This document shows positions 15,646-19,152 of a stretch of DNA of 32,643 bases, piece by piece. This DNA is from Phycisphaeraceae bacterium. GTDB taxonomy: Bacteria; Planctomycetota; Phycisphaerae; Phycisphaerales; Phycisphaeraceae. The stretch spans positions 1 to 32,643 of the forward strand of contig JAFIFY010000049.1 of NCBI GenBank assembly GCA_020831765.1. The letters are read 5' to 3'. The notes below the pieces were generated by a model, which saw only the letters and a program-made list of their open reading frames with translations, ran no database searches and was not told where the DNA came from. How positions within the stretch are numbered: position 1 is the first letter of the stretch; every line of letters begins with the position of its first letter. The position numbers were made by a program, and so were the translations under genes.

Positions 15646-16638
15646 ATGCTGTCGCTTGAAAACTCGGCGACTGACCTTCCCTGGCTGGAGAGAATCGGCC
15701 TGGCGAAGCAAAAACCTTTCTACCACACCAACCTTGGTGCGGCCTTCCTGGGTGACTCGTTGGCCGGAATGAAGCGGATTCCCTCGGAATCCATTGATCT
15801 GGTCGTGACCAGCCCGCCATTCGCCCTGACTCGAAAAAAGGAATACGGCAACGAGCCGATCGAGCGATATCTCGAATGGTTTATTCCTTTTTGTGAGGAG
15901 ATCAAACGAATCCTGACGCCGAAGGGGTCGTTCGTCCTGGACATCGGCGGGGCGTGGATTCCCGGAGCTCCGGTTCGAAGCACCTACCATTTTGAGGTCG
16001 CGGTTCAACTCGCACGAATGTTCCATCTCGCTCAGGATTTCTATTGGTACAACCCGGCCCGTCTGCCGACGCCCGCCGAGTGGGTGACCGTTCGGCGCGT
16101 CCGTGTCAAGGATGCGGTCAACACCGTGTGGTGGTTCAGCAAGACCGAGAACCCCGATGCGGACAACCGTCGCGTCCTGGTCCCGTACAGCGAGTCCATG
16201 AAATCGTTGATCAAGAACGGGTATAAGGCCAAAAAGCGGCCCAGCGGACACGATATCTCGGAAAAGTTCGGCAAGGATAACGGTGGCGCGATTCCGCCGA
16301 ATCTGCTCACCATCGCCAACACCGAGTCCAATTCCGCGTACCTAAGGCTCTGCCGGGAGTTCAGCGTCAAGCCCCATCCCGCGCGTTTCCCCGCCAAGCT
16401 GGTTGAGTTCTTCGTTGATTTTCTGGTCGATCGAGATTCCGATCCGCTGATTCTTGATCCGTTCGGCGGAAGCAATGTCACCGGGTCAGTGGCTGAGGAT
16501 CGTGGATTTCGCTGGGTCACGTTTGAACAAAGTGATGAATACATGCGAGGCTCGATGCTCAGATTTCTTGATGGGCCTTTGTTCACCGAACCCCGGATCC
16601 GGTCGTTGATCTCGGGTGAATCGACCGGTCGAAAGTAG
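15646..16638 (+). CDS. DNA (cytosine-N4) methyltransferase, M.PvuII-like
   Basis: Modification enzyme, 330 residues. Catalytic motif IV is at 55-59 (TSPPF), the form typical of N4-cytosine methylases; SAM-binding motif I is near the C-terminus at 271-280 ([10 protein letters not shown]). This order defines the beta class. From memory of M.PvuII, several segments match nearly word for word: [42 protein letters not shown]-like, IPPNLL and [10 protein letters not shown].PvuII makes CAGCTG into its N4-methyl form, so this site or a close relative is the likely target. Start 15646 is set by GGAG 10 bases upstream and by the M.PvuII alignment. Codon use seems less GC-skewed than in neighbours, suggesting acquisition by transfer. 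The nuclease gene follows after 5 bases. Confidence 0.93.
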
Positions 16639-16643
16639 TCCAT

Positions 16644-17675
16644 ATGCCGGGAATCAGGTTTCCACATATCGCGGAGAAATTTCTCGCGGCCCTTGAGCTG
16701 GCCGGAGCGACCGTCATCCTTCAATCCGCCGTGGATTCCCGGCCTCTGACCGCGGGTGTGGTCGTGGGTGGAGAATCCTACCGCATGGAAATCTACCTTT
16801 GGACGATTACCCACGGTGGTAAGGGGCGAAAACGCCCGCGCGAATACAGAATTCAGAGGACCGCCGCCGCGCCGTTCGTGTTGAAGGCCGGCGTTCGAAC
16901 AATCATGGGAGGATGGCACGAGGATACCGGGACGTGGGCGTTCTGGGATGTCCGTCGACACCTGACGAAAGCCAAGTCGCCGAGTTCGCAGATTTCTCTT
17001 GACACTCTCGAGAAGGCGTCGATCGCAGGGCTGGCCACGGAAACGAGGAATCTTCACGAAGGGCGGGAGATCGCCATCGCGGTTCAGCCTGACTTTCTGC
17101 TCTGGTATATCCAGGAGTATGAGCGAATCTACGACGTTGCTCCCGAGGTTGACGATGCGGGGAATCTGGTGGACGCCTCGCCGGAGGATGAGCGGAACTT
17201 CATTGATACAGCGTCGGATGAACATGCGGTCTCCCGCCGCCATGGGCTCGTGGAAGTCGTGCGACAGTTCCGAGAGGCACGGTTCAGACCGCTCGTTCTG
17301 CGAGCCTATGGCTACCGCTGTTGCCTGACCGGAGTCGCCCTCAGGCTGGTCGATGCCGCCCATATTGTCCCGGTCTCTGATCCGGGAAGCACTGACGATC
17401 CCCGCAACGGCCTTGCGCTGAACCCGTTGCTTCACCGCGCTTATGATGCCGGCCTGCTCGGCCTTCTTCCCGGGGGGCGTACAGCGCTCAACGAGCGACG
17501 TCTCGATGGGTTGCGTGCTCAAAGATTGGATGGTGGCCTCAACTTGCTCCGACAGTCGCTCCCCCCTGAAATGCGGATGCCCAGTTCGCCGGAATTTCGT
17601 CCTCCCGATGAATACTTTCTCAGGGGGTTGCGAGCACGAGGGTGGACGGACGACGACATCGGATCATCCGCCTAA
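16644..17675 (+). CDS. HNH endonuclease, probable cognate restriction enzyme
   Basis: Probable restriction partner of the methylase just upstream; the 5-base gap indicates translational coupling. The C-terminal HNH nuclease of the HNH_2 type is clear: paired cysteines C226-C227 and LTG, then H240 (DAAHIVP), N255 (RNGLALN) and H264 (LHRAYDAG). Residues 1-200 form a separate domain with alternating strands (YRMEIYLWTITHGG, REYRIQRT, IAIAVQPDFLLWYI) that resembles the N-terminal domain of stand-alone HNH_2 nucleases and probably reads DNA. R.PvuII itself is a 157-residue PD-(D/E)XK enzyme, so this is a different nuclease fold beside a PvuII-like methylase. Restriction at the same site is inferred from the pairing. 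Confidence 0.87.
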   Translation: MPGIRFPHIAEKFLAALELAGATVILQSAVDSRPLTAGVVVGGESYRMEIYLWTITHGGKGRKRPREYRIQRTAAAPFVLKAGVRTIMGGWHEDTGTWAFWDVRRHLTKAKSPSSQISLDTLEKASIAGLATETRNLHEGREIAIAVQPDFLLWYIQEYERIYDVAPEVDDAGNLVDASPEDERNFIDTASDEHAVSRRHGLVEVVRQFREARFRPLVLRAYGYRCCLTGVALRLVDAAHIVPVSDPGSTDDPRNGLALNPLLHRAYDAGLLGLLPGGRTALNERRLDGLRAQRLDGGLNLLRQSLPPEMRMPSSPEFRPPDEYFLRGLRARGWTDDDIGSSA

Positions 17676-17901: not shown

Positions 17902-19152
17902 CTAGCTGCTGTCGAGTTTTGTCGGCTCGAGGTGGGTGTTGTGCGGGTTCATCGCCGGGGATTGGCGGTAGACGGGGCTTCGTTCGAGCAAGCGCTCATC
18001 CGGGCGCCAGTGGAGGTGCGGATCGCCCTGGGCTTCGAGCATCTCGTCGAGCATCTTCGCTTCTTCGATCTGTTGCCAGCCGGATATCGAGACGGTGCGA
18101 CCGCCGGGCGACATGGCATCGACCAATTGCGCGGCCAGATCGTGGCGGCGTTTGGCGACCTGTTCGACCGGTTCTTCGGGCCGTGGCGGATGGATCGACT
18201 CGGCCGGTGGCTCGATGCCGGCCTCAACCAGATGCTCGGCCTGTTCCTCCGGGTCGCCGAGATGATCGCTCTCGATCATGAGCGCTTCTTCCTCGCGAAG
18301 CAGGTGGGCCATCAGAGCATCCTGGTATCGCTGTTGACCTCCGTCCGATTCAGCTTGGCGCTCATTGGCGTGGGCATCCGAAGCCGGTGTCGGGCATCCG
18401 GTGTTGTTCAGGCCATGACCGACCTGATGATCGTGACGATCGGCGGTGGCGCCATGCTGGGAGGCATCGCGGCAACCCGTTGACATTGGCGACAGCTCGG
18501 CCATGTCGCTGGAGGCGGGGTCGCGGCCGAAAGTCGAGTCATTCCGCCGCGCATATCGGGTGGTGGATGGATCGCGTGGGTACGGGGTGGGTCTTAGCCC
18601 CAGGAGTTCTTCGATGCATCGCAGGGCGCGCAAACGTTCGTTGTTCCTGGCTTGGGGATCGGCGACGATCCGCTGATACCAGGCGATCAACTCGGCCGTT
18701 ATCTGCTCGCGGGGCCGCTTCAGCCGGGCCACCATTCGTTGTCGGGCTTGCTCGATCCAGCGTGTGATGATCGGCGCGCTGGCGTTGCCCAGTTCATCGC
18801 AGAGTTTCAGACGAATCCGCGACTCATCCTGCGCCTCGGAGAGCATCACCACGCAGCGATCGATCATCAATGTCTCGAAATGAGCTTCTTCAGGAGAGGG
18901 CTGACCTTCCGGGCGCATCGCCTCCGCGGGCGGGGCTTCCCGGGGCGGGCGATCGGCTTCCGGGGGCGGGCGATCGGCTTCCGGGGGTAGGCGATCGGCT
19001 TCCGGGGGTGGGGGCTGATGGGCATTCTGGGTCGAGCGTCGCGGCGCTTCAGCGCATCGGCTCGGCGCTTCATCGAGCTGCATTGAGAACGTCGCCTCGA
19101 TGCCGTGGATGGGCAGGGCGTTGGTGCCGGGATGTTCGAGCAGTTGGGTCAT
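17902..19152 (-). CDS. Hypothetical protein with Pro/Glu repeats and a terminase-small-subunit-like helical region
   Basis: Function not recognised; 416 residues, charged, no signal peptide or membrane span. From the N-terminus: a short leader, then about three and a half copies of a PPPEADR heptad at about 47-75 encoded by a 21-base tandem repeat. A helical segment at about 95-190 follows (ITRWIEQARQRM, LIAWYQRIV, RCIEELLGL), whose pattern recalls the HTH-plus-helix arrangement of phage terminase small subunits seen often in planctomycetes. The rest is acidic and low in complexity, ending in further helices. No ribosome site precedes the ATG at 19152; the ATG at 19083 is an alternative that keeps all repeats. 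It is divergent from pilT. The opposite strand is also open in part, but this frame has the more protein-like composition. Confidence 0.6.
   Translation of the reverse strand: MTQLLEHPGTNALPIHGIEATFSMQLDEAPSRCAEAPRRSTQNAHQPPPPEADRLPPEADRPPPEADRPPREAPPAEAMRPEGQPSPEEAHFETLMIDRCVVMLSEAQDESRIRLKLCDELGNASAPIITRWIEQARQRMVARLKRPREQITAELIAWYQRIVADPQARNNERLRALRCIEELLGLRPTPYPRDPSTTRYARRNDSTFGRDPASSDMAELSPMSTGCRDASQHGATADRHDHQVGHGLNNTGCPTPASDAHANERQAESDGGQQRYQDALMAHLLREEEALMIESDHLGDPEEQAEHLVEAGIEPPAESIHPPRPEEPVEQVAKRRHDLAAQLVDAMSPGGRTVSISGWQQIEEAKMLDEMLEAQGDPHLHWRPDERLLERSPVYRQSPAMNPHNTHLEPTKLDSS
18933..19016. repeat. 21-base tandem repeat (PPPEADR-coding minisatellite)
   Basis: Three clear units run at 18954-18974, 18975-18995 and from 18996, with a degenerate one before them at about 18933-18953. 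Each contains TTCCGGGG(G) followed by GCGATCGG or a near form. The length of 21 bases keeps the reading frame, so copy number can vary without breaking the gene. It shares its G-rich core with the motif found elsewhere in the window. Confidence 0.85.

Follow-up and report, generated by a model that had tools for sequence, protein, structure and literature searches.

A PvuII-like methylase gene coupled to an MTaX1-HNH gene in a Phycisphaeraceae genome, a probable type II restriction-modification pair most likely directed at CAGCTG

The stretch of DNA considered here, referred to throughout as the window, comprises 32,643 nucleotides of contig JAFIFY010000049.1 from the Phycisphaeraceae assembly GCA_020831765.1, and near its middle lie two genes on the same strand that are separated by a gap of 5 bp. 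The upstream gene (15646..16638, +) encodes a 330-residue protein resembling M.PvuII, a beta-class N4-cytosine DNA methyltransferase, and the downstream gene (16644..17675, +) encodes a 343-residue restriction endonuclease candidate in which MTaX1 is joined by a linker to an HNH_2 domain. A sequence-only reading of this DNA had described both open reading frames, their sizes and their coupling, all of which were reproduced, and had noted that the methylase had neither a controller gene nor the PvuII nuclease beside it. That was also what our searches returned: no homologue of R.PvuII or C.PvuII was found among the open reading frames of at least 40 residues in the window (phmmer, E 0.01), and the product of the second gene is an HNH_2 protein. 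The neighbors of the pair are a gcvP gene, which shares at most 61% identity with its counterparts in 20 other genomes, and, past a gene for an unassigned 416-residue protein, that for a PilT-type ATPase; the G+C content of the pair (0.58-0.60) is below that of the surroundings (about 0.61-0.66). In the genome of 4.71 Mb, one second methylase-like match was found at E 0.001, and it was weak (31% over 72 residues). The 416-residue neighbor (17905-19152, -) has no Pfam match, but it does have ten more partial matches in the same genome, three of them with in-frame stops, and only a single weak match among 14 relatives, i.e., it belongs to a genome-specific multi-copy family.

The top match of the methylase in the Protein Data Bank is M.PvuII (1boo, E 2.9e-106), with the runner-up at E 3.9e-8, and profile searches matched PF01555 (110 bits) and the PADLOC model MTase_II (388 bits); the E-values exclude a chance resemblance. 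Where it aligns with the plasmid-borne M.PvuII, at residues 24-308, the window methylase is 55.5% identical to it, and the alignment bore out the statement in the sequence-only reading that the two proteins share nearly identical blocks, e.g., RPSGHDI and one block of 16 residues. The similarity is full-length and includes the SPPF/SPPY catalytic motif typical of the M.PvuII family, present here as SPPF (15811..15822, +; residues 56-59), which we take to be the motif type expected for N4-cytosine methylases; across 11 aligned sequences S56, P57 and P58 are invariant and F59 nearly so. In the same 11 sequences D271, F273 and G275 are invariant in the motif DPFGG (16456..16470, +; residues 271-275), presumably the SAM-binding motif. 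By its sequence, the gene is that of an N4-cytosine methylase, whose product would be expected to modify N4. Between the conserved motifs, we set the boundaries of a presumed target-recognition region (16051..16374, +; residues 136-243). Among the methylases linked to an HNH gene, mean identity is 0.711 in this region vs. 0.599 in the remainder, as one shared site would predict. Between the HNH-linked methylases and those linked to a PvuII-type nuclease, identity is 0.579 in the recognition region and 0.529 in the remainder, and diagnostic differences from M.PvuII occur within the region at positions 144, 151, 184, 192, 205 and 226, together with a 3-residue insertion, so that the site could differ from CAGCTG.

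The partner protein matches MTaX1 (PF20296; 70.5 bits, cut-off 25) in its N-terminal part, a domain that the earlier reading had overlooked and whose original description is reportedly that of Krishnan 2020, and HNH_2 (PF13391; 46 bits, cut-off 21) beyond it. All 71 family members that were aligned contain both domains, and a scan of those members at E 0.001 matched MTaX1, HNH_2 and HNH only. The HNH_2 nuclease domain (17319..17462, +; residues 226-273) contains H240, N255, H264 and D268, each retained by 78-79 of the 84 rows in the family alignment, and in a predicted model of the whole protein (pLDDT 90.5) the catalytic His, Asn and His of an HNH nuclease sit in a predicted beta-beta-alpha-metal fold. 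The closest structural matches of the model were TagI (residues 209-343, Z 12.6), whose structure entry is titled as modification-dependent, and VcaM4I (residues 177-336, Z 11.1), a modification-dependent enzyme whose non-HNH domain reads modified bases. Three of the four presumed zinc ligands are absent from the window protein, which has T229, N260 and L263 at these positions, and the family is divided there as well: across the 84 rows C229 occurs in 41, C260 in 40 and H263 in 41, while 38 rows have T or S at position 229 and 36 have S at position 260. Loss of the zinc site was therefore rejected as a sign of decay, since many other family members are without it.

The MTaX1-containing domain (16644..17126, +; residues 1-161; AF2 pLDDT 92.2) has a predicted PD-(D/E)XK-like fold. 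Both alone and within the whole model it matched I-Ssp6803I (Z 8.1), Hjc (Z 7.8), SPARDA (Z 7.6), DpnI (Z 4.8) and SwaI (Z 3.5), all of which are nucleases of the PD-(D/E)XK superfamily, and the best 15 structural rows for the domain model were entries of the first four. The top Z is modest, and a Foldseek search with the domain gave nothing below E 0.001 (the best was SPARDA, 7.8e-3), but the reading is persuasive nonetheless because unrelated families agree on it. The presumed catalytic place, located by topology, reads D102...S114-x-Q116, of which D102 is retained by 67 of 68 sequences and the other two residues by all 68; it has no conserved lysine column, and with the usual E and K absent, recognition rather than cutting would be expected of this part. 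On the predicted fold, MTaX1 is probably an inactive recognition module of PD-(D/E)XK-like build, and the HNH domain the part that cuts.

Beyond this genome, the pairing was followed by scanning genomes, one for each species, with three HNH query proteins, each beside a PvuII-like methylase, and the best 80 of 85 relatives were considered (the search patterns were based on the parts of MTaX1 near Y51-G58 and G90-W98, which means that invariance there is partly built in). At 72 of these 80 loci, drawn from many phyla, a PvuII-like methylase lies within 1 kb of the MTaX1-HNH gene, the methylase coming first in 60, the HNH gene in 10, and the two lying on opposite strands in 2 (same strand, 70/72); a few of the 72 pairs have broken or cut HNH or methylase frames, e.g., L070, L086, L088 and L093. 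Eight loci have no methylase within 1 kb. Three of them (L043, L050 and L075) have two 5-methylcytosine methylase genes, at a fourth (L089) a PvuII-like methylase lies about 3 kb off, and at the remaining four, one of which (L085) is cut by a contig end, neither arrangement was seen. Neither a PvuII-type nuclease nor C.PvuII was found at the 80 loci (phmmer, E 0.01). The pair also occurs on plasmids in Thiothrix and Roseivivax (two), and 11 plasmid records have PvuII-type nucleases, which accompany different methylases of this family. Among 50,697 phage records, none matched the HNH protein over as much as 80% of its length. Sixty relatives of the window's own genome gave no full-length MTaX1-HNH match and HNH parts only, which, together with the lower G+C of the two genes, suggests that the pair was acquired by horizontal transfer.

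Several of the loci had features of their own. Where two 5-methylcytosine methylase genes are present they precede the MTaX1-HNH gene, an arrangement that suggests an asymmetric site. At six loci (L004, L027, L031, L035, L038 and L039) a third gene, for a Mrr_cat-type nuclease of about 455 residues, lies upstream of the methylase gene, with a short partial match at L056. One methylase in Ensifer (L005, 3782-5035) has no HNH neighbor and carries an N-terminal extension, a candidate ribbon-helix-helix domain, and possibly regulates itself; longer methylases occur in HNH-first loci too.

A tree of 83 methylases bears on the proposal, made in the sequence-only reading, of an exchanged nuclease partner. 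In it the six methylases linked to PvuII-type nucleases are united in a single clade (100/99), opposite to which lie the 75 that are HNH-linked and two that are unpaired; the six represent 6 of the 11 plasmid records (four Acinetobacter records, Saccharobesus, whose methylase is in four pieces, and G032, a relative of the window's genome with all three genes (R, C and M) of the classic PvuII system, were omitted), and the bootstrap of the tree was unsettled (0.980). The methylase of the window sits on a long end branch (0.56), its placement within the HNH side being unsure. The minimum number of changes between the two partner types on this tree is one, and with the two kinds of methylase on opposite sides of it, a single old change of partner would suffice to explain them. 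The different fold of the partner is supported, but its exchange was not a local event, and a nuclease swap in the window's own lineage was rejected on the basis of the tree and the 72/80 loci. The distances among methylases also correlate with those among their HNH proteins (r 0.655, with 0/1000 permutations as high, in 71 of 75 pairs, four short HNH rows being excluded), and this holds for the N-terminal (r 0.650) and C-terminal (r 0.614) parts of the HNH protein. Shared host descent could account for part of the correlation; chance neighbors, however, were rejected given this co-variation.

The genomes themselves offered indirect evidence on the recognition site, as CAGCTG is rare in those that carry the pair. 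Counts were made in 54 pair-bearing genomes, i.e., the window's own and 53 from the 72 loci, chosen by us, and observed/expected ratios (O/E) in 51 of them (G108, G110 and G114 omitted), amounting to 2.3 Mb. In 308 kb of the window's own genome there are 12 copies of CAGCTG against 73.5 expected, making it the most depleted of 54 palindromes with an expected count above 5, and the total in 4.71 Mb is 70 copies. In the pool of 51 genomes CAGCTG was found 251 times against 622.9 expected (O/E 0.40; 0.44 without the window's own genome), the lowest of 64 palindromes, and a scan of the 4009 hexamers with an expected count of at least 200 in pair-bearing genomes also placed it lowest, at O/E 0.39, its one-base neighbors lying at 0.89-1.36. 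The controls were seven of the eight genomes whose loci have no methylase within 1 kb (L085 was omitted), and in these the O/E was 0.76, rank 25 of 64. Whole-genome density had a median of 83 copies per Mb in the 54 genomes vs. 328 in the seven controls (p 0.0027), the latter being few, mixed and scattered from 72 to 878 copies per Mb, and including one (G119, of locus L089) whose HNH gene does have a PvuII-like methylase at a distance of about 3 kb and whose density, 328 per Mb, is not low. Within Pseudomonadota alone, the O/E was 0.48 in 19 pair-bearing genomes (rank 2, after CTCGAG) vs. 0.74 in six controls (rank 24; p 6e-4).

The depletion is not uniform. In 17 of the 45 pair-bearing genomes with an expected count of at least 4, the O/E is 0.5 or more, and in two it is above 1. 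GTCGAC, GAGCTC and CTCGAG are likewise low in the pair-bearing pool, and when the sequences flanking all 72 loci are pooled as one set CAGCTG ranks second after CTGCAG, although it ranks first with a per-locus expectation. Among 61 relatives, density is lower in the six with a strong PvuII-like methylase (of mixed types, the window's own genome included) than in the other 55 (p 0.0065; p 0.018 with the own genome removed). However, three of those 55 (G033, G022 and G002) are below the window's genome in density and two (G035 and G018) are close to it, and in 47 kb of relatives' loci the O/E is 0.28 (4 copies against 14.5 expected), a background avoidance that weakens the support from depletion for this particular genome. 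In the one genome for which a comparison within its own circle of relatives was made, G082, the first of four drawn at random from the pair-bearing ones, CAGCTG was 7th lowest of 25, with no clear effect. Taken together, the counts lend indirect support to the earlier suggestion that the recognition site is the same as that of PvuII, and CAGCTG is the likely shared site of the methylase and the HNH nuclease.

It is our view, held with a probability of roughly 0.6, that the two genes form a type II restriction-modification system composed of a methylase and an MTaX1-HNH nuclease, with CAGCTG as its most likely site. As in type II systems, a methylase gene stands beside an endonuclease gene, here at a distance of 5 bp and in the family at 72 of 80 loci. 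We infer that the methylase would mark one cytosine per strand (at N4) of a palindrome, most likely CAGCTG, and that the MTaX1-HNH protein, presumably as a dimer, would recognize the same site when it is unmarked, methylation thereby blocking cleavage. The HNH domain would cut, one strand per subunit, and the MTaX1 part, with its own catalytic residues probably lost, would serve in recognition of the site or in dimerization. The pair would then represent an old alternative to the PvuII nuclease, mobile and spread widely across taxa, in which the same methylase family is served by a different cutter.

An alternative that we regard as possible, but a good deal less probable, is that the pair is a cognate type II system for some other palindrome or for a degenerate site near to CAGCTG, its specificity having changed and the depletion being background avoidance. 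The diagnostic replacements and the 3-residue insertion that divide the two methylase clades would fit such a change, as would the avoidance of CAGCTG among the window's relatives and the low counts of GTCGAC, GAGCTC and CTCGAG in the pool, but it is difficult to reconcile with a free scan in which CAGCTG came first of 4009 hexamers, with one-base neighbors near 1, and with its rank of only 25 in the controls. Improbable, in our estimation, is a modification-dependent (type IV-like) HNH protein that cuts foreign-marked DNA and merely travels with the methylase. The structural proximity of its HNH domain to TagI and VcaM4I is what recommends this idea, but the protein is tightly linked to, and co-varies with, one type of methylase, and CAGCTG is depleted in the company of the pair, both of which fit a nuclease that cuts at one specific site unless its partner has protected it; the predicted fold of the N-domain, moreover, resembles PD-(D/E)XK nucleases rather than SRA readers. 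The related suggestion in the sequence-only reading of a nuclease that reads another state of the DNA likewise found no positive support in sequence or fold, although discrimination of modified DNA has been proposed in print for MTaX1 (PMC10853773). We give very little credence to a decayed or inactive nuclease that leaves the locus to act as a solitary methylase: the missing zinc ligands might be cited in its favor, but these are absent from many members, whereas H240, N255, H264 and D268 are kept, the frame is open and the predicted fold is good (pLDDT 90.5).

The obvious precedent for the cognate type II pair favored here is the PvuII system of the Proteus vulgaris plasmid pPvu1, with which it has in common the family of its methylase, the combination of a methylase with a nuclease and probably the site CAGCTG. 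The differences are nevertheless considerable: the PvuII nuclease is a 157-residue protein of the PF09225 fold rather than an MTaX1-HNH protein (PF20296 and PF13391), its system has a C gene, for which a search at E 0.01 gave no homologue in the window or among the 80 loci, its genes are divergent and not in one orientation, and the methylases linked to such nucleases are separated from that of the window by the 100/99 branch. PvuII systems are known from other plasmids, e.g., in Aeromonas, in a study that also proposed a restriction-modification pair made up of a C5-cytosine methylase and an adjacent HNH gene in a prophage (PMC5446998), and for methylases of Salmonella plasmids CAGCTG methylation was predicted but not observed (PMC4393132). 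HNH chemistry is itself known in type II restriction, e.g., in KpnI, SphI, Hpy99I and PacI (reviewed in PMC4081073); the likeness of these enzymes to the window protein is by description only, and none of them appeared when solved structures were searched by sequence with E values allowed up to 1. TagI, an SRA-HNH protein (PMC10853773), and VcaM4I share the HNH domain with the window protein, but their other domains read modified bases, whereas the window has MTaX1 and a paired methylase. In CxC ABC-ATPase loci, MTaX1 has been described in the vicinity of 5-cytosine methylases and of permuted N4 methylases, and it is also known from several restriction-modification systems, with "modified DNA-discrimination" as its proposed role (PMC10853773). 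The window protein shares with these its adjacency to a methylase, but a PvuII-like pairing and a nuclease-like fold do not appear in the available portion of that account, and the matches listed in our literature search included none that dealt with an HNH partner of a PvuII-like methylase.

A more speculative proposal, which we hold only tentatively, is that the protein is a re-armed enzyme, in which MTaX1 would be an ancient PD-(D/E)XK core that kept its recognition, probably of CAGCTG, and lost its active site (from D..ExK to D102..S114-x-Q116), and then acquired the HNH domain as its new blade. PvuII and the HNH enzyme would then be isoschizomers, with one site read by nuclease-like folds and cut by unrelated chemistries. 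MTaX1, until now named by association, would gain a fold and a testable role, and a well-known methylase family would prove to have a second nuclease partner, unrelated in build to the PvuII nuclease and present in many phyla. The approximately 70 pairs offer material for testing whether one methylase type with two different cutters shares one site. Two relatives, G001 and G045, have a further type of PvuII-like methylase with a different recognition region; its partner, encoded divergently (L126, 2530-3231; L127, 2511-3215), has about 233 residues, and one copy of it has a sub-threshold PD-(D/E)XK match (E 0.017).
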